A DNA stretch of 42,226 bases from a virus, in the IMG/VR virus record IMGVR_UViG_3300030090_004760, positions 1 through 42,226 of that record; one strand, given 5' to 3'. Below the pieces are notes generated by a model. It saw only the letters and a program-made list of their open reading frames with translations, was not told where the DNA came from and ran no database searches. Of the stretch, positions 5,894 to 41,798 are shown piece after piece. Positions within the stretch are counted from its first letter, which is position 1; each line of letters starts with the position of its first letter. The translations under genes and the position numbers were made by a program.

Positions 5894-5894
5894 T

Positions 5895-7296: not shown

Positions 7297-7445
7297 TGAG
7301 TGAATTAATTCATTTAATAAAACACGTCATTGGTTTTTGCGGTGAGCACTCACATCCAAGTTTATTGTTAACTAGTGGTGTATTACTGACATCAATGGGT
7401 TTGTACTGGACAAGAGTTATTAATTATTTAAAGGATTTATTTTAA
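7296..7445 (+). CDS. 49-residue membrane protein
   Basis: The product starts MSELIHLIKHVIGFCGEHSH and has a hydrophobic segment LLLTSGVLLTSMGLYW (about 24-39), then a short amphipathic end (VINYLKDLF). Start and stop are each joined to a neighbour by TAATG overlaps. One membrane helix; function unknown. Confidence 0.5.
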   Translation: MSELIHLIKHVIGFCGEHSHPSLLLTSGVLLTSMGLYWTRVINYLKDLF

Positions 7446-8325: not shown

Positions 8326-8466
8326 ATGGACTTAGAAGAAATATTACATAATTTAGAAGAAGCTCGAGAATTAGAAGATTGGGATATGATTGATTCTTCA
8401 ATCGAGGCAATAAGAAAATTAATCGATAACTTTGACGAATATCAAAGCGACGAGGATTGGGGCTGA
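8326..8466 (+). CDS. 46-residue acidic protein ending inside the tmRNA gene
   Basis: From ATG 8326, the frame MDLEEILHNLEEAREL... is strongly acidic and helical and ends DEDWG at TGA 8464-8466. The last codons lie in the first bases of the tmRNA (GGGGCTGA), a second case of a reading frame ending in a stable RNA. AAGAAGGG lies about 6 nt upstream of the start. Function unknown. Confidence 0.55.
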   Translation: MDLEEILHNLEEARELEDWDMIDSSIEAIRKLIDNFDEYQSDEDWG

Positions 8467-8862
8467 CAAGGTTTCGACAGGTGTTATTTGACAATAAAGT
8501 GCAACAGAGATTGAGTAGGTCTCACGACAAAAGACTCGTAATTCAAATGGCGATAAATCGCTACAAGGGTTGGAAATAGATTGGCATTTAGCCAATGCAG
8601 AAATGGGTTTTGATAAATACGTTTCTGATTCCCAACCAACTCACGTTTACGCGTAAGTTACTGAGTTAGTCCACACTCGGTCATAAAATAAGATGGACGC
8701 GATCGCCAACACAAGGAGGCATTAAACCTTGTTAGTTAAACCATTCTGAGTAAAATGGGATATGGTGGGTTGTTAGATGACTACCGATTTGGAATCTAAC
8801 TAAGTTGTGAATGACTTTATCGATAAAACATTTGGACGTGGGTTCGATTCCCACCAGCTCCA
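8459..8862 (+). ncRNA. ssrA: tmRNA with an unusual long tag frame
   Basis: Ends form the alanine tRNA-like domain: GGGGCTG (8459-8465) pairs with CAGCTCC (8855-8861), including the G3-U70 pair read by alanyl-tRNA synthetase, and the T arm has GGGTTCGATTCCC. The tRNA-like 5' part shows GGTTTCGACAGG as in other tmRNAs. Pseudoknot 1 is GAGA/TCTC (8507-8510, 8520-8523) with GAGT/ACTC (8513-8516, 8534-8537). Eleven bases later GGC (8549) is the expected resume codon, as in E. coli spacing, and opens 35 codons starting GDKSL and ending THVYA before TAA 8654-8656. Pseudoknot 2 is ACTGAG/CTCGGT (8660-8665, 8676-8681) with TCCA/TGGA (8670-8673, 8694-8697). More hairpins follow. CCA is not encoded. Confidence 0.95.
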
Positions 8863-8922
8863 CAAAAAATAAAATAGGATTTTAATAACTAAATTAATAT
8901 TTATACAAAAGGATATTGAATT

Positions 8923-14931: not shown

Positions 14932-15375
14932 ATGACTAAAAAAGACCTCGTAAAAATAATTCGAGAAGTGGTTAAACGAGAGGTACAAAAAGAAGTAAAA
15001 AAGATATTTATAAAAGAGAGTACCTCACCTAAGTTAGAAAATATTTTAACTGAGGTTGAAACCTCTAAACAATCCACACCAACTAAAAAATACACCGATA
15101 ATGAGGCTTTAAATAAAGTTTTAAATGAAACAGTTGCACTTTCAAATAAATCGACTGATGAGTATCCAACATTAGGTGGTGGAGCGTTTGATACTAAACG
15201 TATGACCGAACTTTTAGGTTACGGTAAAACTGATGATGTAAAACGTGATATGGTAGCCGTGGACACATTCAAAAAGGCAGGTGTATCATCGGAGCAAGTT
15301 CCAGAATCTGTCACTAACGCTTTAACAAGAGATTATAGTGACTTGATGAAAGCCATGAATAAGAAAGGTAAGTGA
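14932..15375 (+). CDS. hypothetical structural-module protein
   Basis: A 147-residue protein. The first 25 residues form a basic amphipathic helix (KKDLVKIIREVVKREVQKEV), and the rest is low in structure signals, with YPTLGGGAFDTKRMTELLGY in the middle. TAGGAG precedes the ATG. It lies between the hub and gp25 genes, so it may be a baseplate chaperone, minor hub part or internal protein. No family recognised. Confidence 0.7.
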   Translation: MTKKDLVKIIREVVKREVQKEVKKIFIKESTSPKLENILTEVETSKQSTPTKKYTDNEALNKVLNETVALSNKSTDEYPTLGGGAFDTKRMTELLGYGKTDDVKRDMVAVDTFKKAGVSSEQVPESVTNALTRDYSDLMKAMNKKGK

Positions 15376-15800
15376 TGCCAGGTGCACAAGAAAAAGATTT
15401 AAATCCAGATACCTTTATAGGTTTATCTTTTCCGCTACGTAGAGACAACACTAGTGATTTTAAATTAACCCAAACATCTCTAGAGCAAGCTGCACATAAT
15501 TTACGTAATCTTTTTTTAACTTATCCTGGTGAAAGGGTTGGTCAACCCGAATTTGGAAGTAGATTAAGAGACTTGTGTTTCGAACAAATAGATGATGATT
15601 TACCAGGCAAGGTAGAGGAAGAGGTGAGACGGGCAGTCACGAACTGGTTACCGTATATAGTCATACAAGAGGTCAACACATTGACTGAGGATGGTGATGA
15701 AAATAAAATTTTAGTACAAGTAAAATATTCAACAACGCTGAACCCTAATACTTTAGAATCGATTACGGTTGACGCAACTTACACCGCAACAGCATATTAG
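15375..15800 (+). CDS. gp25: baseplate wedge protein gp25 (GPW/gp25 family)
   Basis: A 141-residue protein from ATG 15375 (TGATG overlap with the gene before). Typical family features: GLSFPLRRD near the start, LRNLFLTYPGERVGQPEFGSRLRDL (about 48-72) and EEVRRAVTNWLPYIVIQEV (about 84-102). In T4, gp25 joins gp6 and gp53 in the wedge core and is also the sheath initiator. It directly precedes the gp6-like gene, as in other contractile tails. Confidence 0.93.
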   Translation: MPGAQEKDLNPDTFIGLSFPLRRDNTSDFKLTQTSLEQAAHNLRNLFLTYPGERVGQPEFGSRLRDLCFEQIDDDLPGKVEEEVRRAVTNWLPYIVIQEVNTLTEDGDENKILVQVKYSTTLNPNTLESITVDATYTATAY

Positions 15801-15809
15801 GAGTGATAA

Positions 15810-17807
15810 ATGCCACGCACAAGTGTTAAAAAAAATAAGGTAAAATCAGTCAATTATCTCAATAAAGACTTTAGTGACTTTAGAGATAATTTAATTGAGT
15901 TTGCGAGAATATATTTTCCCAACACCTATAATGACTTTAATGAAGCTTCACCAGGTATGATGTTTATAGAAATGACGGCTTATGTTGGAGATGTCTTATC
16001 ATATTATATAGATGCACAATTTAGGGAGTCTTTATTGGCTTACGCTGAGGAAAAAAGAAATGTGTATACGATAGCTCAATCATTTGGTTATAAACCTAAA
16101 ACGACTTCACCAGCGTCAGTTGTTTTAGATGTATTTCAGTCAGTTCCAGCACTAAATGGAAAACCAGATTTTCGTTACGCTTTGAATATTGAAGCTGGTT
16201 CAGAAATAGTTGCTGGTTCAACCGGCACTAACTTTAGAACTTTAGAAGACGTTAATTTCAAATTTTCTAGTTCGTTCGACCCAAGACAAACAGAGATTTT
16301 AGAAAGTGACGGTGGTGTGACCACTAAATTTTTGCTTAAGAAAAAAGTTAAAGCTGAGAGTGGTACAATAAGCACTGATACATTTACTTTTGGAGCTTCT
16401 GAAAAATACAAACAAATTAAATTATCAAATCCTGATGTTATTGAAATTATATCATGTACCGATAGTGATGGTAATACATGGTCTGAGGTTGATTCTTTAG
16501 CCAGAGATACGGTTTTTGAAGACATGGAATCCAACACATTGAATTCACCTGACCTAGTCGAGGATAGGGAAACTGTACCATACATTTTAAAATTAAAAAA
16601 GACATCAAGAAGATTTACAACTTTTATAAATGAGAACGACCAAACCTTGATTAGATTTGGTGCCGGAATATCAGATAATCCCGATGAAGAAATACTACCC
16701 AATCCTGATTCGGTTGGTTCGAATTTACCAGGTAGTCCATCAAAGTTAACATCTGCATTTGACCCAAGTAATTTTTTGAAGACTCAAGCTTTTGGTCTTG
16801 CACCATCAAACACAACCTTGACTATAAAATATTCTCACGGTGGTGGTATCAATGATAATGTAAACTCTGGTGAAATTACTAATGTATCAAGTATAAATTT
16901 TGCGATTCAAGACACTTTATTAGAATCTTCAATTGTACAAGAATCAAAAGACTCTGTAGTATTTACAAATGAAAGACCGGCTACGGGTGGTTCTTCAGGT
17001 CAAACAGTACGAGAGGTAAGAGAGAGTGCGTTAGCATATTATCAATCCCAACAACGAGCCGTGACAAAGGACGATTACGTGGTTAGAGCTTATTCATTAC
17101 CTGCAAAATATGGTAATATTGCTAAAGTACATTTATCTCAAGATGACCAACTAAATAGAGATGCTGATTCGGTTGACTTAGATAGACAAGTGACGGCCGC
17201 TGATGTCGAAGCTGGTCGCACCCTACGTTCATTTCAAGCTGGTAGATTCTTAAATCCCTTAGCTATGAATATGTACACACTTGGTTTTGATTCCGATAAA
17301 AAATTGACTAAATTAAATCAGACGAGTAAAGAAAATTTAAAAACATATCTATCCCAATACAGACTCGTGACGGATGCTGTCAATATCAAAGACGCTTATA
17401 TTATAAATATAGCAGTGGATTTTTCAATATTAACAAAGACTGGATTTAACAAAAATGATGTGTTGTTAAGATGTGTTTCAGCTGTTCAAGATTTCTTTGA
17501 TGTTGACAGATTACAAATAGGACAACCAATAATATTATCCGACATAGCATATGAACTATCTTTAGTGGATGGTGTAGCAAGTGTAGTACCACCAAAAACC
17601 CAAACCACGGATGTAAAATTACCAGTGGTTGTAACAAATAAACATAAAGTTGAGGAGGGTTACTCAGGAAATTTTTACGATATAAATAGTGCCATAGTCG
17701 ATGGTATTTTATATCCTGCACTAGACCCAAGTATTTTTGAGATTAAATTTCCAAATACAGACATAAGAGGAAAAGTGGTGGGTGATAACTTAGGAGTAAC
17801 AGAATAA
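15810..17807 (+). CDS. gp6: baseplate wedge protein gp6 (baseplate J-like)
   Basis: A 665-residue protein. The N-terminus has the gp6 signature: VNYLNKDFSDFRDNLIEFARIYFPN, then ASPGMMFIEMTAYVGDVLSYYIDAQFRESLL (about 47-77). The C-terminal half contains the baseplate-J-type region RAVTKDDYVVRAYSLPAKYGNIAKV (about 412-436) and LKTYLSQYRLVTDAVNIKDAYI. gp6 dimers form the ring that holds the baseplate together and change shape on contraction. AGGAG precedes the ATG, and the stop overlaps the next start. Confidence 0.93.
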   Translation: MPRTSVKKNKVKSVNYLNKDFSDFRDNLIEFARIYFPNTYNDFNEASPGMMFIEMTAYVGDVLSYYIDAQFRESLLAYAEEKRNVYTIAQSFGYKPKTTSPASVVLDVFQSVPALNGKPDFRYALNIEAGSEIVAGSTGTNFRTLEDVNFKFSSSFDPRQTEILESDGGVTTKFLLKKKVKAESGTISTDTFTFGASEKYKQIKLSNPDVIEIISCTDSDGNTWSEVDSLARDTVFEDMESNTLNSPDLVEDRETVPYILKLKKTSRRFTTFINENDQTLIRFGAGISDNPDEEILPNPDSVGSNLPGSPSKLTSAFDPSNFLKTQAFGLAPSNTTLTIKYSHGGGINDNVNSGEITNVSSINFAIQDTLLESSIVQESKDSVVFTNERPATGGSSGQTVREVRESALAYYQSQQRAVTKDDYVVRAYSLPAKYGNIAKVHLSQDDQLNRDADSVDLDRQVTAADVEAGRTLRSFQAGRFLNPLAMNMYTLGFDSDKKLTKLNQTSKENLKTYLSQYRLVTDAVNIKDAYIINIAVDFSILTKTGFNKNDVLLRCVSAVQDFFDVDRLQIGQPIILSDIAYELSLVDGVASVVPPKTQTTDVKLPVVVTNKHKVEEGYSGNFYDINSAIVDGILYPALDPSIFEIKFPNTDIRGKVVGDNLGVTE

Positions 17808-27580: not shown

Positions 27581-28609
27581 ATGTTTTTTAAATCATTAGA
27601 CCAAGACCTCGATGTTGTTGAAGACGTTGGTGTCGTAACCTCTGGAATATTTCAGGATGGTGCATCAAATATAACAACATTTCACACATCTTCCACGCAA
27701 TATACGAATACTGGTGATTATAGTGTTGATGTCTATCGATTCAACCCCGGAACCAATGCGTCTGCATCAGTGCAGTTTGGTGTAGCCTACGGACACGCTG
27801 ATGGTAGTGGTTCATTAGGTACAAAAGGTGCTACGGGAGATAGAACTACAGCCGCTGTCTTTGGACAAGTCAACAATTTAATTAATCCACCACAAACAAC
27901 TAGATTTACTTTTGGTCCTGTTGCAAACGTAAAAGACATTTATGCTTTAAGCTTCAACCGTGCAAGAGTTCGAGAAGAAGTTGAACCAGGTGGATGGGAG
28001 ATACACATTACAAGTGGTACAGGTAAAACTGTAAGATTAATTGATGATTCATCAACACTCGAGGGTGGTAATAGTAGTTTAAAAAACTTCTCACCAGAAT
28101 ACAATATAGTTAGTGGTACTTTAATCGGTGGTACGTCAATTTATCAAGCGGCTGCATCTGAGAATAGTACATTAGGTTCTTTTGGTTTATTCTATCCTAC
28201 ACTTGGTTTATTAGTGTTTAATCCACAAAGATTTACTAGTGGTAGTATAGCGTTAGTGACAAAAAGTGGTTCAAATTCTGATGATAGAAACGCCTTAACA
28301 TTCGCAGAAGCTATAAAGAGTGGTGAATACTTTCAAGCTAAAAGACAAGAAGAAATAACATCTCGTCACTTTTTTGTTAGAGCTACTGCCAAAGAATTTA
28401 ACGCAACCACTAACGAATCATTCTATACCGAGTCAGTCTCTGGTATCAAACAAATCATACCTGGTCTTAGAACAGACCCTAGAACTTACATTACATCAGT
28501 AGGTATGTATAATGATGATAACGAATTGTTAGCCATTGCAAAATTAAGTCAACCAATTATCAAATCTATATCAAGAGAAGCCTTAATTAAAGTAAAACTT
28601 GACTTCTAA
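27581..28609 (+). CDS. tail fibre-type protein A
   Basis: A 342-residue beta-rich protein. The N-terminus (MFFKSLDQDLDVVEDVGVVT) is followed by a Gly/Ser/Thr-rich domain with FGVAYGHADGSGSLGTKGAT. The last 40 residues hold TSVGMYNDDNELLAIAKLSQPI, a motif also present at the end of the next gene (TEIGLYNDSNELLAVGKLAKPI). This end motif is widespread in fibre and fibre-linked proteins of T4-like phages. TAGGAG precedes the ATG. Confidence 0.75.
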   Translation: MFFKSLDQDLDVVEDVGVVTSGIFQDGASNITTFHTSSTQYTNTGDYSVDVYRFNPGTNASASVQFGVAYGHADGSGSLGTKGATGDRTTAAVFGQVNNLINPPQTTRFTFGPVANVKDIYALSFNRARVREEVEPGGWEIHITSGTGKTVRLIDDSSTLEGGNSSLKNFSPEYNIVSGTLIGGTSIYQAAASENSTLGSFGLFYPTLGLLVFNPQRFTSGSIALVTKSGSNSDDRNALTFAEAIKSGEYFQAKRQEEITSRHFFVRATAKEFNATTNESFYTESVSGIKQIIPGLRTDPRTYITSVGMYNDDNELLAIAKLSQPIIKSISREALIKVKLDF

Positions 28610-28620
28610 GGGGCTAGATA

Positions 28621-29691
28621 ATGTCATTTAGAAAAAACATTGACCCAGAAAATGTTTTAATATCCTCATTTGAAGTGAATAAAACTTTTACTTTTAATGA
28701 TACGGATAGTGGAAGTGGTTTTTTTTCTGTCCCACTAATTAAAGGTTCAGATTCAAATCTTAGTGATTTTCAGATAGGAACAGCTGCCTCATCCACGTTT
28801 TCAGGTAGCACCTATTTTCATGTTCCGACTTATCAACAAATAAATAATCTTTATTATAAAGACATAAGAAACATGCGTGGGTACATCGATTTAATCAGAG
28901 GTGTTCCTACAAGTTCAAATGGTGTTGTGACATATCCCGCTGAAAGACCTTTATTTGATACTAAAAGAGAGTTGAAAAGACCATTCACGCGACAATTACA
29001 CGACACAGCTACATTAATATCAGTTCCACAAAGGTTCTACGGCGAAGCTATACAACCAGGTTCAATAACGTTAACGGATGATAGCACTAATCAAACATTT
29101 ATTTTAAAAGATGACAGTTACGGAAATATTTATGATACAGCTCATTCGGCTAGTTATGCTAGTAGAGTGCCAACCGCCACGTATAGTGGTAGTGTAGTTG
29201 GAAATGTGTTCTATAATGATGGTATCATTGTTATTACAGATACTGGTTCTTATTCAAGTGTAGCTACTGATAATGGTAGTGATGGATTTACTTTAAAATT
29301 TAATTCAACACAGACCATATATGAAAGAGAGTATGTGTGTGTTGTTGGAGAAAACGAATTACAACACACCACCAACAAGAGTTTAAAGGTTGGTAGGAGT
29401 GGTAGTTTTACAATGGGGACTTTTGTCTCTTCATCTCTTAGAGGCACTAGACACGATGGGTGGCCATATTTTATTACAGGTTACTCTACAAGTTCAATGA
29501 ACGTAAACGGTTATAATATGGGTACTGAGTTAATTGGTGAGGCAACCCACTCACATTTTGCTACTTACATTACAGAGATTGGTTTATACAATGATAGTAA
29601 TGAACTTTTAGCTGTCGGTAAATTAGCAAAACCTATCAAAAATGATAAGGAATTAGCACTCACATTTGTAGTGAGATTCGACACAAATTAA
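28621..29691 (+). CDS. tail fibre-type protein B
   Basis: A 356-residue protein starting MSFRKNIDPENVLISSFEVN, related at its end to the preceding gene (IGLYNDSNELLAVGKLAKPI near residues 320-342). The centre has Gly/Ser/Thr-rich beta repeats and aromatic segments (GSTYFHVPTYQQINNLYYKD). AAGGGGC lies before the ATG. It is the last gene of the structural run. The next 113 nt (29692-29804) hold no gene but a TATTTATA motif at 29725-29732. Confidence 0.75.
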   Translation: MSFRKNIDPENVLISSFEVNKTFTFNDTDSGSGFFSVPLIKGSDSNLSDFQIGTAASSTFSGSTYFHVPTYQQINNLYYKDIRNMRGYIDLIRGVPTSSNGVVTYPAERPLFDTKRELKRPFTRQLHDTATLISVPQRFYGEAIQPGSITLTDDSTNQTFILKDDSYGNIYDTAHSASYASRVPTATYSGSVVGNVFYNDGIIVITDTGSYSSVATDNGSDGFTLKFNSTQTIYEREYVCVVGENELQHTTNKSLKVGRSGSFTMGTFVSSSLRGTRHDGWPYFITGYSTSSMNVNGYNMGTELIGEATHSHFATYITEIGLYNDSNELLAVGKLAKPIKNDKELALTFVVRFDTN

Positions 29692-29804
29692 AACCAAGCC
29701 TTAAATTTTTCACCATATATATGATATTTATATACTGAAATAAAGTCTATATCCTTTTTTATCTAAAAGGTTACTTGTTAATTAACATATTGGGGAGATT
29801 TACA

Positions 29805-32699
29805 TTGCGTAAATTTTTATTGAGCCTATTATTGGTTACGAGTTTTGCATATTCTCAAACACCAATAATTAGACTTTTACAATCAAGACAATACAAGACA
29901 CCTAAGTTTTGGTGGAGAGACCAAGTTACTCAAGACTTGAGGACATACTTGGCCGATGACACGTCAACTCCTGCCTACAAGAATAATAACTTTGATGCTT
30001 GGAGAGACTCGGTCATGACTGTGGCCGTCACCCTTGATGACAATGGAGCTAGTGTAACTGCATTTCGTTTAGATTTAGTATTTGACAATGACCTATTTAC
30101 TTGGACTCATGATTCAACACACGTGGAAAAAGGTGCTTATATTAATAGTTGGACTGAGGGTGATAACGCTGAAAATGGTCATCACTATTCTTATGAGGTT
30201 GTTCACTATCCAAATGTCGGATACACCGATGGGATAGCTAGTAACGGTAATGAAAAATCAGCTAGTGATAATAGATACGATTGGTTAAGAATCACAATGG
30301 TATCCCACAATGGTGGTACACACACGTTTGGTAATGGTGACGGAAACCAAACCGAACTTTTGAAACTACACTTCAAGGTTGATGATGTGGCTGATAATTT
30401 TAATCCAAGAAGTTTTAGGGTAGCGACCGAGTATGAAAATAACACTGGGTATTACACGTACATTACAAATGGTAACTACGCATCAGCATACAAAGTTTAC
30501 GTTGATGGTAACTACGGAACTGAATCAACTAACTTGGATGGAGCAAGAGGAGATATAACATTACACCCAAAACTATTAGACGTTGAGGGATACTTTAGAT
30601 ATGCTGGTGGACATAGTAGAGCGGCTGGTGAATCGTGGAACACAAGACCAGAGAATACATATCCGTATTGGAAGATTAAGTTTGAATTAGATAGAAACGA
30701 AGCAAACTTCAATCCTCGTATTACTAACTGGTATAACTTGGAGGATATAGCTAATGATGCTAATACTGCTGACGAGGATGGTAGTGATGATGTTATCGGT
30801 GACCATTCCTCTACATTTAGATTTAATAAAAAGGCTCTCAATGGTAATACAGCGTCAACTGGTGATGCAACTTTACCTGGTGAGGGATTTTTAGGTATAT
30901 CATATTACGATTCAACTTATACCGATGATAAAGGATATTATAATATTCAACTACCGAGAAACAATAGATATCGTATATCGTTTTGGCCACCAGATGGGTC
31001 TGATGGAATACCTGGTCATACAATTCTTGAGTTGGATAGAGACGATATCACAACCGTAGCTGATGCTATTAAATCGTTTAACTTCCAATCAAGTAAACAT
31101 AAAAATTTTAATTCAGGTGGTACACGTATAGATACATTGACTGCTATTGAATACTTGATAGCTGATGTTGACGGTGATGATAAGTTTTTCTTAAATGATA
31201 CCTACATATTATGGTCGTACGTCTCAGGTATTATGAACAACTATACACACCACAATGGTAACTCTTATGAAGATTGGTCTACTATTGATAACTTCAATGG
31301 TAACAACACAAGTTACACATATTATCAAACAGTCAATGGTCAGTCAAGACCACAGAAATATGAGTTCACGGTTTATTGGGATGAGACCACAATAGCAGAA
31401 AAGTCAAGACTTGACAGAACAAATGAGAATCCAGCTTACTTTGTAAACAATAGTGCTGGTTGGGTAGATAGTTTAAAAGCTCCAATGACCGTAACGAAAG
31501 CTCTTGTAGATGCTCAAAAAGCACTAGACTTTGATGGTAACTTTGCAGGTCAGATAGAAATTATAAATCCGTTGATGAATGATGCTCAAACAGGTTTGGA
31601 CACACTACATTTAATTTTAGGTGCTGGTTATTCTGAGTGGCACAAAGATAGGTTACATGAGAGAAATAATCAAAAGGGAAATCCCGATTATTTGATGCCT
31701 GACATTGGATATTATTTTACTGGTGATGTAAACACCACAGGTACAAAAGTATCGGAGAGTGGTGGTGACGGATATCAAGATGATATAGCATCCAATATTA
31801 TGTATCACAGGTGGAAAGGTGTTAGTGCTCCAGGCCACCATGTAAATAAATTTAATCCTGAGTTTGGTTCAATGAATAAAGTTCAAATAAATGAAAGTGT
31901 TGAGCCTGACGTATATTTATCTTTACCAGCCGATTCAACTGTAAGAGTACAATCTGGTAATCAGATAGAGGTTCCTTTGACGATTATACCTGATGATAGT
32001 ATTATAGTCGCTGGGTTTGAGTTTGAAGTGGAGTTTGATACTAGAGCGTTAAAATTTATTGATATGAAAACCGATGTCCTACCAGGCCCTTGGATGACCT
32101 ATGTAAATGTACATGAACCAATAGGTGGTTGGCAAAAAGTTTCTTTTGGTGGTATTGATTATTCACCAAACAACGCACCAGAAACTTATCATATAACAAA
32201 AGAAATGATTGGTTTAAAACTTTTATTTGAAGCAGAGTTTCCTGAAGCCGAAGAACTATACACCGCACCAATTAAGTTTATTGGTAAAAGTGCAGCTTCG
32301 ACACCCAACGGAGAGGACTTGGTTGTACATAAGAGTGATGGTTTTGTAGAGGTATGGAACAAGTATTGGGCTTTTGGTGGTTCTAAACCTGATACTGAAA
32401 ACATAACGTACAATTATCCTAATCCTTTTAAAGATAATACAGTATTTCAATTTTACTTAAGTGAGTCCCAAAATGTTAAATTATATATTTTAAATTCAAT
32501 GGGACAAAGAGTCGGAACTTTATTAAACGAACACGTACTTGAAGGATTACATACTTTTGATTTTACAAATCAACCTAGTATCTGGATACCTGAGATGAGT
32601 GTTTATGAAAAACACCAAAAATTAGAGCCTGGTGTTTATATTTTTGTATTACAGACAGACAAAAAAATTAAGGCTAATAAGTTTACGGTAATAAAATAA
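29805..32699 (+). CDS. large secreted protein with T9SS C-terminal sorting domain and cohesin/dockerin-like parts
   Basis: I place the start at TTG 29805 (GGGGAG 8 nt upstream), giving 964 residues with a signal peptide RKFLLSLLLVTSFAYS, cleaved before QTP; a TTG at 29775 would add 10 residues and spoil the signal. A beta region near 45-230 (VMTVAVTLDDNGASVTAFRL) and one near 700-850 (IEVPLTIIPDDSIIVAGFEF, then FDTRALKFIDM) look like cohesin-type domains. DVDGDDKFFLNDTYILWSY (about 455-474) resembles a dockerin calcium loop, and GDVNTTGTKVSESGGDGYQD a second. The last 95 residues are a type A T9SS sorting domain: YNYPNPFKDNTVFQF, VKLYILNSMGQRV, LEPGVYIFVLQT, KANKFTVIK. The protein should cross the outer membrane through a host T9SS and stay on the surface or be released. 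Confidence 0.82.
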   Translation: MRKFLLSLLLVTSFAYSQTPIIRLLQSRQYKTPKFWWRDQVTQDLRTYLADDTSTPAYKNNNFDAWRDSVMTVAVTLDDNGASVTAFRLDLVFDNDLFTWTHDSTHVEKGAYINSWTEGDNAENGHHYSYEVVHYPNVGYTDGIASNGNEKSASDNRYDWLRITMVSHNGGTHTFGNGDGNQTELLKLHFKVDDVADNFNPRSFRVATEYENNTGYYTYITNGNYASAYKVYVDGNYGTESTNLDGARGDITLHPKLLDVEGYFRYAGGHSRAAGESWNTRPENTYPYWKIKFELDRNEANFNPRITNWYNLEDIANDANTADEDGSDDVIGDHSSTFRFNKKALNGNTASTGDATLPGEGFLGISYYDSTYTDDKGYYNIQLPRNNRYRISFWPPDGSDGIPGHTILELDRDDITTVADAIKSFNFQSSKHKNFNSGGTRIDTLTAIEYLIADVDGDDKFFLNDTYILWSYVSGIMNNYTHHNGNSYEDWSTIDNFNGNNTSYTYYQTVNGQSRPQKYEFTVYWDETTIAEKSRLDRTNENPAYFVNNSAGWVDSLKAPMTVTKALVDAQKALDFDGNFAGQIEIINPLMNDAQTGLDTLHLILGAGYSEWHKDRLHERNNQKGNPDYLMPDIGYYFTGDVNTTGTKVSESGGDGYQDDIASNIMYHRWKGVSAPGHHVNKFNPEFGSMNKVQINESVEPDVYLSLPADSTVRVQSGNQIEVPLTIIPDDSIIVAGFEFEVEFDTRALKFIDMKTDVLPGPWMTYVNVHEPIGGWQKVSFGGIDYSPNNAPETYHITKEMIGLKLLFEAEFPEAEELYTAPIKFIGKSAASTPNGEDLVVHKSDGFVEVWNKYWAFGGSKPDTENITYNYPNPFKDNTVFQFYLSESQNVKLYILNSMGQRVGTLLNEHVLEGLHTFDFTNQPSIWIPEMSVYEKHQKLEPGVYIFVLQTDKKIKANKFTVIK

Positions 32700-32806
32700 T
32701 GGGTGAATGGCAATTCTTTTTAGCACTAGGTGTAATGTTACCAGCATTGTATTGGACATTGAAGTTCATTGTATGGTTTGCTGATAAAGTAGAAAGAAAA
32801 AAATGA
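32699..32806 (+). CDS. 35-residue membrane peptide
   Basis: ATG 32699 overlaps the cargo gene stop (TAATG). The product MGEWQFFLALGVMLPALYWT continues LKFIVWFADKVERKK: one hydrophobic helix and a basic end. Its stop overlaps the next ATG (ATGA). The double coupling between cargo and barrel genes argues that it is translated. Confidence 0.55.
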   Translation: MGEWQFFLALGVMLPALYWTLKFIVWFADKVERKK

Positions 32807-33651
32807 AAAAAATATTTTTAACATTATTACTTTTTAGTAATATATTCGCACAAGCAAATAGATTATTGATGCTATCACCATCAGCTCACACGAGTTCGAT
32901 TGGTAATGTGATGTTACCCATGATGAGTCCAGCTAGAAATCATCTTGACCCAGATAAAATTAGTTTTAGTAGGGTAAATTGGTTAGGTAATATCGTTGGT
33001 GACATGAACTATATGCATATAAATTTAGCTAAAGGTTCATTTGATTTCAATACTTTGATATTTAATTATGGGGAGCAGTTAGAGACTGACATAAGTGGTG
33101 TAGTGACTGGTAAGTTTTCACCAATGAGCTCTATATGGGGTGTTAGTTGGGGTGGTAATATAAAAGGATATAATGTTGGTGTAACTGCTAAAGTAATACA
33201 ACATGATTTATATGTGCAAAAAACATTCGGCACAGCTTTCGACGTAGCTACTTATCTACCAAAAGTATATAAAGATTTAGATGTGGATATAGCTATAAGG
33301 AACTTTGGTGTTGCACCAACCTTTGGTAATTTTAAAACTAAACTACCAACTAGTTTAAATGTTGCTTTAACATATCCGTATAAACAATGGATGTTTTATG
33401 AACAACATAACGTCATGAAGCAACACATGACATCTGGTTTTGGAGTATCATATAAATATGAAGTAAAAGACCAAGGTATAATATTCGGTAAAGTTGGATA
33501 TTTCATTGATGAGATGCATAATCTCACATATCCAACGTTCGGATTAGATTTAAAATATGATAGGTATTTTATAGGCATGAGTTATATTTATGGAGACGAG
33601 ACGTTACCTGTTAGTAACACTTTTAGATTAACGATAAACTTGGAGATATAA
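32803..33651 (+). CDS. PorV/PorQ-like outer-membrane beta-barrel (T9SS shuttle family)
   Basis: A 282-residue protein with a signal peptide (MKKIFLTLLLFSNIFAQ). The mature start LMLSPSAHTSSIGNVMLPMM matches the family's L..P.SARA.ALGG pattern. Further matches: KISFSRVNWLGNIVGDMNYM, FDFNTLIFNYGEQLETD, then GKFSPMSSIWGVSWGG, IRNFGVAPTFGNFKTKLPTSLNVAL, and paired strands to the end. This is the layout of the PorQ/PorV group, 14-strand FadL-like barrels that carry T9SS cargo from the translocon to the anchoring complex. It directly follows a gene whose product has a T9SS sorting domain, so a cargo/shuttle pair is the natural reading. The end, NTFRLTINLEI, ends as an outer-membrane barrel should. 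Confidence 0.75.
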   Translation: MKKIFLTLLLFSNIFAQANRLLMLSPSAHTSSIGNVMLPMMSPARNHLDPDKISFSRVNWLGNIVGDMNYMHINLAKGSFDFNTLIFNYGEQLETDISGVVTGKFSPMSSIWGVSWGGNIKGYNVGVTAKVIQHDLYVQKTFGTAFDVATYLPKVYKDLDVDIAIRNFGVAPTFGNFKTKLPTSLNVALTYPYKQWMFYEQHNVMKQHMTSGFGVSYKYEVKDQGIIFGKVGYFIDEMHNLTYPTFGLDLKYDRYFIGMSYIYGDETLPVSNTFRLTINLEI

Positions 33652-33723: not shown

Positions 33724-34116
33724 ATGGCAAAGAAAAACGTAGTCGATGCAGAAGCTGCAGTCGAGGAAATAAAAAATAAAAAGTTTGGATTATCAATTCA
33801 AAATATTATAGCACTTGTTACCGTGTTATCAACTGGTATAGCAGGTTGGTATAGTTTTACAGGTCGTATTGATGGTTTAGAAGAAATTGTCACGGGTTTT
33901 GCAGAAGCTAGTGATATAGAGTTGGTGACAACTAAACTTGATAAGTATGATGAAGACTTTAAATATCTTCGTGAGAAAGTTGATGGTATGAAAGCACCTA
34001 AAATAAAATCTTACGATGGAGATATTATTAAATTAAAAAATGAAATCAATAAATTAAAAGGTGAAATCGCTAGATTGGAAAAATTATTAAAAGACCCTTT
34101 ATCTGATTTCAGATAG
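33724..34116 (+). CDS. membrane-anchored coiled-coil protein
   Basis: A 130-residue product from ATG 33724 with AAGGAG 7 nt upstream; a longer frame would start inside the cysteine microprotein gene and is rejected. One membrane helix at about 26-46 (IQNIIALVTVLSTGIAGWYS), then an extended helical domain (KLDKYDEDFKYLREKVDGM; IKLKNEINKLKGEIARLEKL). The topology suits an inner-membrane protein with a periplasmic coiled coil, like an inner spanin, or a phage tape-like anchor. No family recognised. Confidence 0.7.
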   Translation: MAKKNVVDAEAAVEEIKNKKFGLSIQNIIALVTVLSTGIAGWYSFTGRIDGLEEIVTGFAEASDIELVTTKLDKYDEDFKYLREKVDGMKAPKIKSYDGDIIKLKNEINKLKGEIARLEKLLKDPLSDFR

Positions 34117-34124: not shown

Positions 34125-34532
34125 ATGAAAAAAGAAATAAAGTTTTGGTTATCAGTAGGTATCATTTTAGCATTATCCATAGGTTCTCAATTACTAGGTC
34201 AAGATGTGTATGATGCTCCTGAAGAAGTTGATAAAGCTATTTCAAGACAAGAGCTACGAGATAAAAGAGCTGATAGAGAAATTATTAGACAAGAGTTGGT
34301 AAGAAACCAAATGATAGTTAATCAAGAGTTAAAACGATTTGAAGAACGTCATAAAAAGTTACATAAAAAAGATAAAAGTTTATCAAACTCAAGATTAGTG
34401 ATTTCGTATTTTCTTATTGGAGCGGCTGGTTACTATTTGGGTTACTTAGCTAGTAAAGAAGATATGAAAAAAGGAAAAAAAGCTAGGATGATGTATGGTA
34501 AAAAATTAAAAGATGATGGGAAAAAAATATGA
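34125..34532 (+). CDS. two-helix membrane protein with charged periplasmic or cytoplasmic loop
   Basis: A 135-residue protein. The N-terminal helix (FWLSVGIILALSIGSQLLGQ) could be a signal peptide or anchor; a long charged helix follows (AISRQELRDKRADREIIRQE), then a second membrane segment (LVISYFLIGAAGYYLGYLA, about 89-107) and a basic tail. It overlaps the CsgG-like gene by 4 bases (ATGA). It may be an assembly or anchor partner of the envelope module. No family recognised. Confidence 0.65.
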   Translation: MKKEIKFWLSVGIILALSIGSQLLGQDVYDAPEEVDKAISRQELRDKRADREIIRQELVRNQMIVNQELKRFEERHKKLHKKDKSLSNSRLVISYFLIGAAGYYLGYLASKEDMKKGKKARMMYGKKLKDDGKKI

Positions 34533-35164
34533 TTAAATTATTACCTTTACTATTAGTATTTTTCGGTTGTGCCGCTTCGGTATCAACTGAACAATACGTT
34601 GGTGAATATGAGAAACAAAAATCATTAGATGAAGTTGAAGTAACTAAAGTAGATGGATTAAAACTTTATGACTTGAAGTTTAACAAAGAGTTAGAAGAAA
34701 GATATCCTGAACTTGCAGAGAAACGAGTTTCTATGGGTTTGGTTCAAGAACTTCAAAACGTAATATCTTATATCGGTAGATTTAACTTAGTTGAAGCTGA
34801 AAGAGATATGCAGTTGTTGATTATGAATGACTTGAAAGCTAATAAAGCTAAGATTACAAAAGCAAAATATTCAGCTAGTGTAAGTATCTATGACTTTGGT
34901 GTAAATCTAAAAGAAGAAATCAAAGCAGGTAAAGTAGAAACAATCAACGAAACATTTGTTGGTATACAAGTAAAACTTATCAACAATGAAAATACACAAT
35001 ATGTTGTAGGTAGTGGAAGAGGTACTGCTTCAACCATAGGTAAAGGATTCTTGATGAATCCAAATATGGCTTGGAATCAGAGTTCACTTAGTTCCGCATC
35101 AAATAAAGCTATGGAGACAGCCGTAGTCAATGTTATAAAAGCTATTGACAGACGAGGTTGGTAA
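34529..35164 (+). CDS. CsgG-family-like outer-membrane lipoprotein
   Basis: A 211-residue protein with a lipoprotein-type start: hydrophobic MIKLLPLLLVFFG followed by Cys 14 (FFGC; Phe at -2 is not canonical). The mature part has a helix-rich middle (LVQELQNVISYIGRFNLVEAE, as CsgG's ...F.vveR) and the beta region YSASVSIYDFGVNLKEEI, IQVKLINNENTQYVVGSGRG, ending ASNKAMETAVVNVIKAIDRRG, the pattern of the CsgG nucleotide-binding-like fold. CsgG forms a ring-shaped secretion pore for curli in the outer membrane; the two transmembrane beta segments can be placed only loosely here. CsgG-like genes have, as I recall, been noticed in other marine phages with unknown role. Confidence 0.65.
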   Translation: MIKLLPLLLVFFGCAASVSTEQYVGEYEKQKSLDEVEVTKVDGLKLYDLKFNKELEERYPELAEKRVSMGLVQELQNVISYIGRFNLVEAERDMQLLIMNDLKANKAKITKAKYSASVSIYDFGVNLKEEIKAGKVETINETFVGIQVKLINNENTQYVVGSGRGTASTIGKGFLMNPNMAWNQSSLSSASNKAMETAVVNVIKAIDRRGW

Positions 35165-35169: not shown

Positions 35170-36150
35170 ATGAGGCAGAGGTTATTAAGTTTTTTATTTC
35201 TACTGAGTAGTATCTCTGCCCAATCATTCTTTTATAGTTATATAGACCCTTGTGAACAAACTACTGTAAGAACATCTACAATATTACAGAATGGTGTTCA
35301 AGGGTTTCAAGTCACGTACTACAATCGTACAAAATTCTTTACATTAGAACAAGTAATAAGTGGTGAGTTAGAACAATGGACTCAAGACGTATATAGAGAT
35401 TTTGAGAACTTGTTTCCTTGTGCCGTTAGAGTTGCAGAGGAAGTTTTATCATCAGTTATAGCTGATAACGTTACAGAACAATTTACCAAAAGTGATATCA
35501 GTAATGACCCAACTCAAGTAAACTATGCAATACGCTCTACACAAAGTTCTGATAGGTGGGTGACTCAATTCAATAGTGTTTATACTGCCACATCCTTTGA
35601 TGGTAACAGTAGGCATGATGGTAATTTTAATTTTACTGATGACTTTAGGAAGACCTCAATTACTTACGGAAGAGGTTTTAGATGGAAAGCTAAAAAACAA
35701 AATGTTCAATTATCAGTAAGTGGTTTGACTTATCAGACATTTGAGGGTTGGGATTGGTTATTATCTAGCTCAGTTGCTAAATCATTACAAAAGAAAAACT
35801 CAGAAGCTGCGGTGTTAACAGCTAGTTACGGTAGTGTTAGTGGTGTCGGATTCGGAAATATAACGGGTTTATACGCGATGAGGTATCCAGCTGAATTTAG
35901 TTTTGGTAGAGTTACTTTTTCCAATTATATTGCGTACACATTATTGCGTTATTATGAAGGGAATATTGATGGTGGTAGATATTTATTTCTACGAAGTCCT
36001 ATAATCTTCTTTCCAACTGTATCGTTTGATTGGAAAGTTGGAACAGCTTTTACGTTTAATGTTGGTATATCAATGGGATATAACACGGTTGTGAATGATT
36101 ATGGAGAACGTAATAAAACATTATCCATTTTATTTGGAACTTACTTTTAG
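35170..36150 (+). CDS. outer-membrane beta-barrel protein between two CsgG-like genes
   Basis: A 326-residue protein with a signal peptide (RLLSFLFLLSSISAQS). The first 90 mature residues form a small domain with two cysteines (DPCEQTT and LFPCAVR), possibly a disulfide, and a segment QGFQVTYYNRTKFFTLEQ loosely like CsgF. From about residue 130 on, alternating aromatic strands (TSITYGRGFRWKAKKQNVQL; FNVGISMGYNTVVNDYG; KTLSILFGTYF) are those of an outer-membrane barrel that ends in Phe. GAGG lies upstream of ATG 35170. A partner for the CsgG-like proteins is likely from its place between them; the family is unknown. Confidence 0.65.
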   Translation: MRQRLLSFLFLLSSISAQSFFYSYIDPCEQTTVRTSTILQNGVQGFQVTYYNRTKFFTLEQVISGELEQWTQDVYRDFENLFPCAVRVAEEVLSSVIADNVTEQFTKSDISNDPTQVNYAIRSTQSSDRWVTQFNSVYTATSFDGNSRHDGNFNFTDDFRKTSITYGRGFRWKAKKQNVQLSVSGLTYQTFEGWDWLLSSSVAKSLQKKNSEAAVLTASYGSVSGVGFGNITGLYAMRYPAEFSFGRVTFSNYIAYTLLRYYEGNIDGGRYLFLRSPIIFFPTVSFDWKVGTAFTFNVGISMGYNTVVNDYGERNKTLSILFGTYF

Positions 36151-36159: not shown

Positions 36160-36675
36160 ATGAAAAAATTATTCTTGACTTTTACATTATTTGGTTGTAT
36201 ATTAGGACAAGAGCTTCCACAACCAGCACTGATTGGTGTGGATTTAAAAAAACCCACTTTAAAAATAAGTAAGATTGTTGTGGATAAAAACACAGGTATT
36301 GTAGACAAAAGAATCACGATGGGTCTCCCAGAATTATTAGAGGAAGCTTTTCAAAACAGTAAATATGTTTTAGTCGATAGTGATAACGCAGATTTCGTAG
36401 CATCATCAGAACTAATATGGTATGGACGACCAGATGAGGCATTTAGTATTATTGGGTTGTTTAATCGTCGTAAATCCGAGACTGAGATAAGATTAAATGT
36501 AATCATTACAGAGGTCGCAACTCAAAAGAAGATTGTCAGTAGGGGAATAGGTACTATTCAAACAGACATCGCTTCGGCTGGTTTACAAATTGAAGAGAAC
36601 ATTCCTTTTAACAGAAGTGAATTGGGTGGTGCTGTCAGAAAAGCAATCGATGAGGCAACTAAACAACTAAAATGA
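36160..36675 (+). CDS. second CsgG-like secreted protein
   Basis: A 171-residue protein with a signal sequence; Cys 13 in LFGC may be a lipid site, or signal peptidase may cut after LGQ. The pattern LKISKIVVDKNTGIVDKRIT, then GLPELLEEAFQNSKYVLVDS, LNVIITEVATQKKIVSRGIG and FNRSELGGAVRKAIDEATKQ follows the order of CsgG-family proteins (helix after the G-LP..L..A segment, central strands, C-terminal helix). It is shorter than E. coli CsgG (277 residues including signal). AGGAG precedes the ATG. It overlaps the next gene. Confidence 0.6.
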   Translation: MKKLFLTFTLFGCILGQELPQPALIGVDLKKPTLKISKIVVDKNTGIVDKRITMGLPELLEEAFQNSKYVLVDSDNADFVASSELIWYGRPDEAFSIIGLFNRRKSETEIRLNVIITEVATQKKIVSRGIGTIQTDIASAGLQIEENIPFNRSELGGAVRKAIDEATKQLK

Positions 36676-37616
36676 TTAAACTTAAAGATTTATTAACAGA
36701 AATTGGCAAAGATGGTACGGTTTGGATAGGTAACGAAACTTATCCAGCTCATACCCAAACTGCTTTAAATTGGATGAGACGACAATACATACCCCTCACA
36801 CCAAAGGTGGTTGAAAAGATTGTGGGTAAAAAAATACCTGTTAAGAGTTTTCACATCACAGGACCTGAAAGTTTACATAGAATGAAAAATGTGTTGAATA
36901 GTAAAAAATCACTATCAACATTTACGATGACAAATAAAGACGAGAAGCTAGCAAAGGGTGGTGGTATACAAACCAAAGGTGGTATAATATTTTATATAGA
37001 GGGAAATCTATTAGCACAAAAAACGATTGATTTTGATACCGTGCCTGATAAAACTGGTCGTAGATGGGTTGATTCATTTAATATATTTGGTGATAGACAG
37101 ACCTGGCCTGCTATGGTCAAAAAAGCTAAACTTGGTTGGGAAAAGATAGAAAAAGAAATGGACAAGATTGGAAAAAAATATTACGATAGATGGATGTTAC
37201 CAGGTGATGACCCTAATAATCTTTCATATGAGGAGTACAAAGAGTTAGCCAAAAAAGAACAAGGCCCTCTCATAGCAAAAATGATAAAAGATTATATTGA
37301 TTTAGCAAATAAAGCGTTAAAAACAAATAAGAAAAAATTTATCAATAGTTTGATAACACCACCTTATAAAGGGAGCACGGGTTGGTGGAATGAGATATTA
37401 GTTTATAATGTGAACATTGTTGATATGTTTGTATTGAAAAGGGTTTTACCAACAAGTGGGCCTGGTGACCCAGCTACTTATGAGGCAAGAAAGACCATGG
37501 AAGAACTTGAAAAACTAGCTTCAGCCGCAACTGGTAATGACCCAATCACAGTAGGAACACCGGCACAATACAGAAAATGGTTTGCAAAAAGAGGAGGTAA
37601 GATTGTATCATCGTGA
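36672..37616 (+). CDS. MIKLK-leader protein, possibly ADP-ribosyltransferase-like
   Basis: A 314-residue protein. The N-terminus MIKLKDLLTE resembles a T4 capsid-targeting peptide with a cleavage-type end (L-x-x-E). Then VKSFHITGPESLHRMKNVLN followed by KKSLSTFT (about 57-84) and GGIIFYIEGN recall the fold of ADP-ribosyltransferase enzymes (basic residue, STF strand, later strand), but no Glu-x-Glu motif can be fixed. The rest is helical and basic (EKIEKEMDKIGKKYYDRWM), with a Gly-rich end. In T4, Alt is a head-packaged ADP-ribosyltransferase with such a leader. The enzyme reading is only a suggestion. Confidence 0.55.
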   Translation: MIKLKDLLTEIGKDGTVWIGNETYPAHTQTALNWMRRQYIPLTPKVVEKIVGKKIPVKSFHITGPESLHRMKNVLNSKKSLSTFTMTNKDEKLAKGGGIQTKGGIIFYIEGNLLAQKTIDFDTVPDKTGRRWVDSFNIFGDRQTWPAMVKKAKLGWEKIEKEMDKIGKKYYDRWMLPGDDPNNLSYEEYKELAKKEQGPLIAKMIKDYIDLANKALKTNKKKFINSLITPPYKGSTGWWNEILVYNVNIVDMFVLKRVLPTSGPGDPATYEARKTMEELEKLASAATGNDPITVGTPAQYRKWFAKRGGKIVSS

Positions 37617-37753
37617 TAAAACACTTGAAACAAAATAACATTGGATATTGGTCACATTGGTGGAGAGCTATGAAATGTGGATTAGCTCTTATTATACACG
37701 CTTGGTTACCCGATGTTTTAACGGATTATGCTAGTAAGGAATTATCTAAATGA
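37613..37753 (+). CDS. DUF6356-like small membrane protein
   Basis: GTG 37613 overlaps the previous stop and opens a 46-residue frame. HLKQNNIGYWSHWWRAMKCG and then LALIIHAWLPDVL match the DUF6356 pattern (HL.e....Y..H...A...g..L..a.....HA..P), a small membrane family of unknown function in bacteria and phages. One membrane helix (about 27-41). The stop overlaps the next ATG (ATGA). Confidence 0.65.
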   Translation: MIKHLKQNNIGYWSHWWRAMKCGLALIIHAWLPDVLTDYASKELSK

Positions 37754-38469
37754 AACGAGAAACAATACTGAGTATATTATTAAACGTAACGTTTGTTATG
37801 TGTATTTTTGCTGTCAGATATTTTTACGTAAAGAAAGAATATAATTTTTTAAAAAGTGATAGTGAACGACAAGAAACTTTGATAATAGCAAATGAAATAA
37901 AGATTGATAGTCTATCATCCATTACAAGAAGATTACAAATAGATAATGACACTCAAGATAAAGAACTAAAAAAATTCTCAACAGATTTATACAAAATAGT
38001 TAAATGGAGTAAGGATTACGAGCAAAGAATACAAAATTTAATTGATAGTATCGAGGTGATGAAACTAGATTTAAAAACTTTTGAATCAACCACGATACCA
38101 TTTTTAAAAGAATTTGGAAACAATGATAATTATATAAAAGTGGTAGGAAGCACTGGATTGAGAATTAAAGATAATAAAGTAGTACAATCTAAGACTATTG
38201 CCGATTTTGAAGGAAAACTCGATTTTGGCCCTCCACAAATTGAACAATTGGATAGATATGAGTTTAGAGCTATTTATCCAGATAATCAATTTTTGAATTT
38301 GAAAATAAAAGGTGGACAAAGTGAGGTGATTAAATTAAAACCACCTAGAAATCAAATTTCAATAGGGCCGATGTTCGGCGTAACGTACAACCAAGTGACT
38401 GGTTTAACAGAGCCCATATGGGGTATTGGTGTCACTTACAACTTAGTAAAACTATGGGATTGGAAGTAA
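37750..38469 (+). CDS. membrane-anchored coiled-coil protein with beta-type C-terminus
   Basis: A 239-residue protein: membrane helix at about 7-25 (LSILLNVTFVMCIFAVRYFY), a coiled coil (about 28-115, SDSERQETLIIANEIKIDSL), then a beta segment (KVVGSTGLRIKDNKVVQSKT) and a Gly/Thr-rich end (QISIGPMFGVTYNQVTGLTE, GIGVTYNLVKLWDWK). The architecture suits an inner spanin-type or membrane-spanning phage protein whose C-terminal hairpin reaches the outer membrane. The partial gene at 2-133 ends in a similar way. Confidence 0.65.
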   Translation: MKRETILSILLNVTFVMCIFAVRYFYVKKEYNFLKSDSERQETLIIANEIKIDSLSSITRRLQIDNDTQDKELKKFSTDLYKIVKWSKDYEQRIQNLIDSIEVMKLDLKTFESTTIPFLKEFGNNDNYIKVVGSTGLRIKDNKVVQSKTIADFEGKLDFGPPQIEQLDRYEFRAIYPDNQFLNLKIKGGQSEVIKLKPPRNQISIGPMFGVTYNQVTGLTEPIWGIGVTYNLVKLWDWK

Positions 38470-38470: not shown

Positions 38471-38917
38471 ATGATAAAATTAAAAAAAATAATGAATGAA
38501 CATTATTGGAATGAGAGAAAGTTTGGTGAGCCATTACCAAAACTAAGATTAGAGCAAGATGAACCAGACCATTTTGGTGGTGGTGAGAACATTGATATCT
38601 TAGGTTTCAAAACAGAACACTTTGATATTTGTAAGTCAGCAGTTATACTGTATAATAAACTTATGGAAAAAGACCTTAATGATGAAGCAAAAAAATTAAT
38701 TGTTGATTCTGCTAAAGATTTAGACCACATATTTGAAATGGAAAAACAAGTCGTTAAAGGTGAAGAGGTAGACCACGACCCAATTGAACACTCAGTTGAA
38801 TTAACAAATATCATTTCTTTTAAGCTAGGTAGAGTTGCCGAATTAATAAATGATGATTTTGAAAGAGACACTAATTTTATAAAAATGCACGTCATGGAAA
38901 TTATTAAGAGAAAGTAA
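38471..38917 (+). CDS. MIKLK-leader protein, unknown
   Basis: A 148-residue acidic protein with N-terminus MIKLKKIMNE (I-x-x-E at 7-10), matching the leaders at 36672 and 40926. The rest is helical: HFDICKSAVILYNKLMEKDL, then an EHSVELTNIISFKLGRVAEL segment. No catalytic motif. If the leader directs capsid entry, this is a candidate internal protein. Confidence 0.6.
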   Translation: MIKLKKIMNEHYWNERKFGEPLPKLRLEQDEPDHFGGGENIDILGFKTEHFDICKSAVILYNKLMEKDLNDEAKKLIVDSAKDLDHIFEMEKQVVKGEEVDHDPIEHSVELTNIISFKLGRVAELINDDFERDTNFIKMHVMEIIKRK

Positions 38918-40784: not shown

Positions 40785-40926
40785 AGATGCGAAAAACAGA
40801 AAGAAAAAAAGAGCTTTATTGAATAAGAAATGGGCGTCAGAGGGTAGAACAGCAGTTCAACATAAAAAATGGCTGGTAAAACAAGCTGAAAAAGGAACAC
40901 AAATACCTATTTATGGCAGAAGATAG
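40774..40926 (+). CDS. 50-residue basic protein
   Basis: ATG 40774 lies within the end of the previous gene, 6 nt after GGGAGGAAA. The frame opens MPNKDAKNRKKKRALLNKKW and ends PIYGRR, with TAG 40924-40926. It is very basic and probably binds nucleic acid. The stop overlaps the next GTG start. Confidence 0.55.
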   Translation: MPNKDAKNRKKKRALLNKKWASEGRTAVQHKKWLVKQAEKGTQIPIYGRR

Positions 40927-41798
40927 TGATAAAGCTAAAACACTTATTAGAAAATAAAGATTCAAAACACGCGGCCGGTATAGCTTATGTTTTTAATAAT
41001 GAGTTATTATGTGTACAAGATACTCGAGGTAAGTGGGGTATACCTAAAGGTCATAGACACGTTGGAGAAACTCCTGAGGAAGGAGCTTTACGTGAGTTTA
41101 CTGAAGAGACCTCAATAATATTGAATAAACCAATCAAACTTTCTCATATATCAAAGAAAAAAAATAATGGTGATTTTCATGTCTTTTATTGTAAAGGGGA
41201 TAAAAAATTTACAGTGCATTTGTCACATGAACACATGAATTCAGGTTATTACGATATAAATAATCTACCAACACCATTTGATAAAAGAGTTGTCAAAGTT
41301 ATTGAAAAACTTTCAGAGGGTTCTCCAACAATCAACATCAAGGGTTTAAAAGGTGCTACAGGTTTTATAAAACCAGAGGAATGGGAAGCAAAAAAGAAAT
41401 CATTAAAAAAATCCATAGAAAATACAACAGGTTATCTTTTGTTAGAAAGAGTTGATTTATTAGACACTGCCGAACAACTAGTAAAGCATTACGGTCTAAG
41501 GTCGAGAGTGAGATTTACTAGTGGTAGAGATATGGCGGATTATGATTGGGTTAGAGATGTTATAAATTTAAGAAAAAGTTATCCCACCATCAGAGAATTT
41601 CTTATCACAGTTTTACATGAAATACGACATGCTCTTGATAGAAAAAAATTAGGTGTAAAAAGATACGAAAAAGAATATATAATAGCGGGTGAGATAGCCG
41701 TACAAAAGGGTGGTGATTTTCACGATGACAATAAGTTTGAAGAACGAGCAGAACGTTGGGGTATTCAACAATATAAAAAGTGGAAAAATAAAATTTAA
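40926..41798 (+). CDS. Nudix hydrolase fused to a HEIRH metallopeptidase-like domain
   Basis: A 290-residue product starting at GTG 40926 (overlaps the previous TAG). N-terminus MIKLKHLLEN is the third MIKLK leader. The Nudix box spans about 42-64: GHRHVGETPEEGALREFTEE, then TSI; the Gly before the last residue of the consensus is Thr, and the catalytic REx2EE is intact. The second half has a zinc-protease motif, LHEIRHALD (about 230-238), with a Glu in EERAERW (about 271-277) as a possible third ligand. Nudix enzymes cleave nucleoside diphosphate-linked compounds, such as RNA caps or alarmones; the metalloprotease half is of the IrrE/ImmA or SprT type by form. The pairing is unusual. Confidence 0.75.
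   Translation: MIKLKHLLENKDSKHAAGIAYVFNNELLCVQDTRGKWGIPKGHRHVGETPEEGALREFTEETSIILNKPIKLSHISKKKNNGDFHVFYCKGDKKFTVHLSHEHMNSGYYDINNLPTPFDKRVVKVIEKLSEGSPTINIKGLKGATGFIKPEEWEAKKKSLKKSIENTTGYLLLERVDLLDTAEQLVKHYGLRSRVRFTSGRDMADYDWVRDVINLRKSYPTIREFLITVLHEIRHALDRKKLGVKRYEKEYIIAGEIAVQKGGDFHDDNKFEERAERWGIQQYKKWKNKI

Follow-up and report, generated by a model that had tools for sequence, protein, structure and literature searches.

A type IX secretion cargo and a PorV-like barrel encoded side by side in marine tailed phages: a probable surface-display module

Phage use of host secretion is known mostly in the form of cargo genes or curli-type pores. Cryophage encodes cargo of the type IX secretion system (T9SS) (PMC7468147), and T9SS domains occur near BACON open reading frames (ORFs) in gut phage contigs (PMC6949934). 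Here we describe a locus in a 42.2-kb virus fragment, IMG/VR record IMGVR_UViG_3300030090_004760 (the window, that is, the whole stretch of 42,226 nucleotides, to which all coordinates refer), where the gene of a large T9SS cargo stands beside that of an outer-membrane barrel of the PorV/PorQ family, the kind of barrel that ordinarily handles such cargo, here a candidate shuttle. We interpret this locus as a phage-encoded surface-display module that uses the T9SS of the host, with a probability of about 0.6. An earlier reading of the letters alone, called here the sequence-only reading, knew of no described phage T9SS module. For the cargo half this does not stand, as the two reports above show, whereas for the shuttle we found no report of a phage-encoded version; the literature search on phage-encoded PorV yielded nothing relevant in open-access papers, so this absence is no proof.

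The cargo carries a type A sorting domain at its C terminus. TIGR04183 scores 29.4 bits over residues 871-961 (cut-off 23, E 6e-7), while Pfam PF18962 stays under its cut-off (20.7 against 27), and all 20 full-length homologues, which are 55-93% identical to the window protein in the alignment, match TIGR04183. The signal peptide, KFLLSLLLVTSFAYS followed by Q, was called with a simple scan of our own, other than SignalP, and glutamine (Gln) Q18 is invariant across 20 homologues. These results bear out the secreted protein of about 960 residues with a type A sorting domain that the sequence-only reading had proposed. A cohesin domain, absent from that reading, is matched by PF00963 above its cut-off at residues 712-757 (E 9.6e-6). 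The sorting domain itself includes a conserved insert of ~20 residues preceding the PGVYIFVL strand, and ends in KFTVIK. K959 and K964 of the last strand and G900 of motif L-beta3-beta4 are invariant in the homologue alignment (strands assigned by eye); a lysine in the last strand and the glycine of this motif have been marked as functional in sorting domains (PMC11285876). Exactly one sorting-domain match occurs per record in 17 of 18 viral records, the 18th being truncated within the cargo, compared with 42 matches in a Flavobacteriales metagenome-assembled genome (MAG). No enzyme domain is recognised in the cargo, and its body contains dockerin-like calcium motifs, seen by eye. Forty-four viral loci carry the cargo at 49-93% identity, and the marine tailed phages that have it form a widespread family; a scan of genomes by cargo alignment found no relative. 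The exact motif TATATNATATTTATA occurs once in the window, within the intergenic leader of the cargo gene, and this leader may act as a promoter.

The barrel is a divergent member of the PorV/PorQ family, with homology evident from hidden Markov models (HMMs), a profile search of the Protein Data Bank (PDB), the predicted fold and a tree, and the pattern noticed in the sequence-only reading thus holds. The window barrel matches the family model NF033709 at E 1.5e-18 (67.4 bits, under the cut-off of 90), and this cut-off is passed by three of the ten homologues scanned singly (L007, L023 and L030, at 103.7, 92.6 and 90.1 bits). The PorQ model gives 3.4e-12 and 46.1 bits for the window protein; across the homologues, 19 of 19 match PorQ and 18 of 19 the PorV family. 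Searched against the PDB, a profile of 19 barrels returns PorV 6h3i as its sole match (E 2.8e-9). An AlphaFold2 model (predicted local distance difference test, pLDDT, 78) has as its two best fold matches 8gl6_F and 6h3i_F (TMq 0.72 and 0.67), both PorV from SprA-PorV complexes. In a tree that sampled PorV and PorQ proteins of Flavobacteriales, Marinimicrobia, Ignavibacteria and Caldithrix, with labels checked for four proteins, the phage barrels fall together in a single long-stemmed clade (100), which joins the PorV side (94) apart from PorQ. Scored at full length against the phage barrel profile, Marinimicrobia PorV comes out on top with as much as 114.8 bits, and Flavobacteriales reach up to 75.4 bits. 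The 311-aa PorV of small-genome Marinimicrobia is also short, and is 27% identical to the phage barrel (E 3e-18). The signal peptide of the barrel is followed by Gln at +1, and this residue, Q17, is invariant. A library of viral protein structures contained no PorV-like viral model, and a search of plasmids was negative. One PorV-like ORF (profile E 1e-18) in the INPHARED entry 'Bacteriophage sp.' MT836897.1 (L235) lies on an unverified, unannotated fecal scaffold that is probably a mislabelled bacterial sequence, and was not counted.

Cargo and barrel form a conserved pair. Wherever the contig of a relative extends beyond the cargo, the next gene is the barrel, and since the pair is conserved across more than 20 contigs, pairing by chance is excluded. 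Contigs that run further encode the transmembrane (TM) protein, lipoprotein 34529, outer-membrane protein 35170 and protein 36160 in constant order (genes are named by their first coordinate; Table 1). Both genes are under purifying selection, with a pairwise dN/dS of 0.04-0.28 (cargo) and 0.11-0.22 (barrel); the cargo and lipoprotein 34529 exceed the neighbouring fibres in conservation. In the window, two fibre-like genes (27581-29691) precede the cargo, and the barrel is followed by a run of small membrane and exported proteins ending at 36675. The sequence-only reading had placed two genes between cargo and barrel, but there is a single 35-aa ORF that overlaps both. Its proposal that the phage redirects the host T9SS is partly supported, in that the cargo and the PorV-family barrel are real and their pairing is conserved; the redirection itself is putative. 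No SprA was found in 17 viral records, which are fragments, so that the absence is not final; on this evidence the T9SS of the host would have to be used. Lipoprotein 34529 was also considered as a CsgG homologue, by eye and from weak fold matches. CsgG chains dominate those matches, which are non-significant (E 0.05, from a poor model), and the identification was dropped after no Pfam match, no PDB profile match and an hhalign probability of 2; a CsgG-like nature is a weak lead only.

Table 1. Features of the cargo-barrel locus, in window coordinates
Feature	Coordinates	Strand	Remarks
Cargo leader, intergenic	29692..29804	+	AT-rich conserved element (ATATATATnATATTTATA) and CTTTTTnATCTAAAAGG inverted repeat; alignment of 11 viral loci
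T9SS cargo, 964 aa	29805..32699	+	signal peptide, large body, cohesin domain, type A sorting domain; TTG start
Sec/SPI signal peptide (predicted)	29805..29855	+	LRKFLLSLLLVTSFAYS followed by QTP; Gln at +1
Cohesin domain	31905..32324	+	about residues 701-840; Pfam core 712-757; homologous to immuto gp015
T9SS type A sorting domain	32415..32687	+	residues 871-961; TIGR04183
Single-TM ORF, 35 aa	32699..32806	+	overlaps cargo stop and barrel start; closest relatives only; L002 homologue 62%
PorV/PorQ-family outer-membrane barrel, 282 aa	32803..33651	+	signal peptide; candidate shuttle or anchor for the cargo
Single-TM coiled-coil protein	33724..34116	+	68-89% identity in relatives; always directly after the barrel
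Small membrane protein, variable	34125..34532	+	found in part of the family
Lipoprotein, lipobox FFGC	34529..35164	+	highest conservation within the module (73-98%); gp017 of immuto is a homologue
Predicted outer-membrane protein	35170..36150	+	signal peptide, Gln at +1; homologue of immuto gp018
Second, smaller exported protein	36160..36675	+	related to 34529; homologue of immuto gp019

A cultivated relative of the module is found in Flavobacterium phage immuto. Among 50,697 phage records, lipoprotein 34529 matches only this phage (four records; 28% identity, E 4e-23). Immuto gp015, of 243 aa, combines cohesin with a type A sorting domain (TIGR04183 9.3e-12; Pfam cohesin and Por_Secre_tail both score over cut-off) and aligns to the C-terminal part of the window cargo (hhalign 95.9%, E 5.8e-9). 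It is followed by a TM protein and by gp017, gp018 and gp019, which are matched by the profiles of 34529, 35170 and 36160; the record annotates the genes of this module as hypothetical or cohesin-domain proteins. Two phage lineages thus share a T9SS cargo and an envelope cluster, and the marine lineage additionally has the barrel. The sorting domains differ in flavour, that of immuto being Bacteroidota-like and ending in KLIKK, versus NYPNPF...KFTVIK in the window phage. Such a difference in style on homologous cohesin domains would be in keeping with each lineage having adapted to the machinery of its own host. In immuto, gp013 and gp014 (5788-7950 of immuto record L234), directly upstream of the cargo, encode exported proteins with Gln at +1, one with a C-type lectin domain and the other with a dockerin-like end, and the two might assemble with the cohesin cargo. 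Homology of gp013 and gp014 to the body of the window cargo was tested and is non-significant.

We propose that the cargo is exported by Sec through its predicted signal peptide and then passes the outer membrane at the host SprA translocon, to which its C-terminal sorting domain would direct it. The phage barrel may receive the cargo at the translocon, as its membership of the PorV/PorQ family suggests, and serve as its dedicated shuttle or anchor it in the membrane. Incompatibility of sorting domains between species has been reported (PMC11285876) and could explain why a phage would bring a shuttle of its own. The cohesin-bearing cargo could then be retained on the surface of the infected cell or shed from it, with the co-conserved lipoproteins and outer-membrane protein as putative assembly or anchoring partners. 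The benefit, the weakest step of this scheme, would lie in a changed cell surface, with receptors hidden from other phages or from progeny virions, or with a cell made sticky; receptor masking, exclusion and adhesion are accordingly the purposes we consider. Several findings weigh against a display module that brings its own shuttle. The barrel has 282 residues compared with ~400 for PorV, and a segment of roughly 75-110 residues is absent. It fails the PorV equivalog NF033710 (cut-off 250; the best singly scanned phage barrel reaches ~51 bits), which is why we call it PorV-like and not PorV, and the PorQ equivalog NF033711 (cut-off 220) at 46.1 bits. A search of 155.7 kb of immuto revealed no PorV-like barrel; because immuto does without it, a module of this kind does not in general need the shuttle.

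With less than even confidence, we go one step further and suggest that the barrel could be the first virus-encoded part of the T9SS machinery, a PorV-type shuttle of the phage's own, matched to a single phage cargo, so that the host translocon is used without the host shuttle. Together with the lipoprotein and outer-membrane partners it might form a dedicated surface-assembly system of phages of the Fibrobacteres-Chlorobi-Bacteroidetes (FCB) group, of which immuto would hold a shuttle-less version. If so, viruses reprogramme which proteins the T9SS displays, and the pair would be a minimal system, provided by nature, in which to study the recognition of sorting domains by PorV. As a homologous module exists in a cultivated Flavobacterium phage, the question is testable now.

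Two other functions are conceivable, both unlikely and to a similar degree. The first is a module for breaching the outer membrane or for lysis, the latter being among the roles offered in the sequence-only reading, in which the barrel, CsgG-like lipoproteins and the outer-membrane protein perforate the membrane late in infection and the cargo is a passenger. The position after the tail-fibre genes, a weak Rz/LysB-like match in gene 37750-38469 (TIGR03495 E 0.01), the CsgG chains among the fold matches of 34529 and the lysis hypothesis for the CsgGF genes of marine phages (PMC9004378) are all in keeping with it. However, the holin and endolysin genes of immuto are separate and far from its homologous module, which makes a lysis role less likely; the barrel resembles PorV and is no known pore-former, a conserved 964-aa cargo with a sorting domain has no obvious place in a lysis cassette, and CsgG homology is unconfirmed by Pfam, PDB profile or hhalign. 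The second is interference: the phage barrel would be a competitor of host PorV for SprA, the cargo would keep the translocon busy, and host surface proteins such as adhesins, gliding proteins and phage receptors would no longer be displayed. A shortened PorV with no extended segment is what a decoy might look like, cargo and barrel always occur together, and the incompatibility of T9SS between species points to a specificity that could be exploited (PMC11285876). Yet a decoy would not need the conserved body of the cargo, and immuto has a cargo and no barrel.

That the cargo is instead a virion fibre or tail-associated adhesin, not secreted, is improbable: its large size, its cohesin domain and its place directly behind two fibre-like genes speak for this, but it has a signal peptide with an invariant Q at +1 and a sorting domain in all full-length homologues, and the homologous immuto module sits among replication genes, distant from the tail genes. 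Least probable of all is that the barrel gene is an auxiliary metabolic gene for a FadL-like channel, passing nutrients or lipids, which would be unconnected with secretion and paired with the cargo incidentally; FadL and TodX come among the matches ranked next by fold, but PorV leads by sequence profile and by fold, the tree groups the clade with PorV, and a T9SS cargo is invariably the neighbour.

The window derives from a contractile-tailed phage, with baseplate wedge genes at 15372-17807 that find matches among the PHROG baseplate families. For the large wedge protein, identity is 47% to Microcystis phage Mel-JY01 and 41% to the Flavobacterium phages 'immuto'. Mel-JY01 is the nearest relative by its tail and infects a cyanobacterium, which would have no T9SS; none of the module genes was found in it. 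Elsewhere in the window, a transfer-messenger RNA (tmRNA; 8459-8865, + strand) is detected by Rfam RF00023 at 95.9 bits and was missed by ARAGORN, its tag apparently ending in SDSQPTHVYA. A manA RNA motif (2176-2373, + strand; Rfam RF01745, barely over the gathering score) lies upstream of a small heat-shock-like protein gene at 2567, and a peptide deformylase fused with a SEC-C zinc motif is encoded at 7713-8300 (+ strand). Three + strand proteins (36672-37616, 38471-38917 and 40926-41798) share the N terminus MIKLK(D/K/H)(L/I)(L/M)xE, which resembles a capsid-targeting leader cleaved by a prohead protease, and are candidate injected internal proteins; the third also has a NUDIX domain.

The host is probably a marine FCB bacterium, of the Marinimicrobia or the Flavobacteriales, and SprA is present in both groups. 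We lean towards Marinimicrobia and make no claim. Their PorV proteins score best against the phage barrel profile, and the NYPNPF style of the sorting domain would point the same way. Phage tmRNA tags end in -THVYA or -YAYA, and five of six other large records of the family that were checked have a tmRNA with a tag ending in VYA or AYA; in a small sample, Marinimicrobia tags (ADYGQFAYA, ADNGQMAFA; ends AYA, AFA, AIA and AAA) are nearer to these than is GENNYALAA of Flavobacteriales. For Flavobacteriales speak the host of immuto and a 9-kb phage contig with the full module in the Flavobacteriales MAG NAT55 (L058). Assignment by this co-binning is weak because no barrel match of phage strength was found in 394 other Bacteroidota and 245 Marinimicrobia genomes. 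In the cargo, the barrel and protein 35170, an invariant Gln follows the predicted signal peptide, in line with the Q-rule of Bacteroidetes (PMC5837995); as a host marker the rule proved undecisive, since our simple scan is also high in Ignavibacteria and Marinimicrobia. Genomes of about 0.8-1.0 Mb in the Marinimicrobia search (L215-L217; G200, G270, G255 and similar) contain SprA homologues, the 311-aa PorV and 1-3 sorting-domain candidates, and on sequence their T9SS appears very reduced.

Among known systems, the CsgGF genes of pelagimyophages and methylophage Melnitz (PMC9004378) are likewise phage-encoded outer-membrane secretion parts in marine phages; they differ in being curli (type VIII) parts with no T9SS cargo. 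Immuto (vB_FspM_immuto_2-6A gp013-gp019, NC_055915.1) resembles the window phage in its cargo with cohesin and sorting domains, its TM protein and its identically ordered homologues of 34529, 35170 and 36160, and differs in a cargo of only 243 aa, separate lectin and dockerin-like neighbours, the lack of a PorV-like barrel and a position among replication genes. PorV of Flavobacterium johnsoniae (6h3i, 8gl6) is homologous over the barrel and is its best PDB profile and fold match, and the NIVDDMxYNFI segment of the phage barrel resembles LVDDMAYDFI of Marinimicrobia PorV. Unlike PorV, the phage barrel has 282 residues, is ~75-110 residues shorter in one segment, scores under the equivalog cut-off and is phage-encoded beside one cargo. 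Cryophage (PMC7468147) also encodes proteins with T9SS type A sorting domains that are thought to use the host T9SS. Its cargo genes vary and lie in flexible islands, enzyme domains occur in two of the three, and no shuttle has been described for it, whereas the window phage has one conserved cargo, a PorV-family barrel and a fixed gene order.

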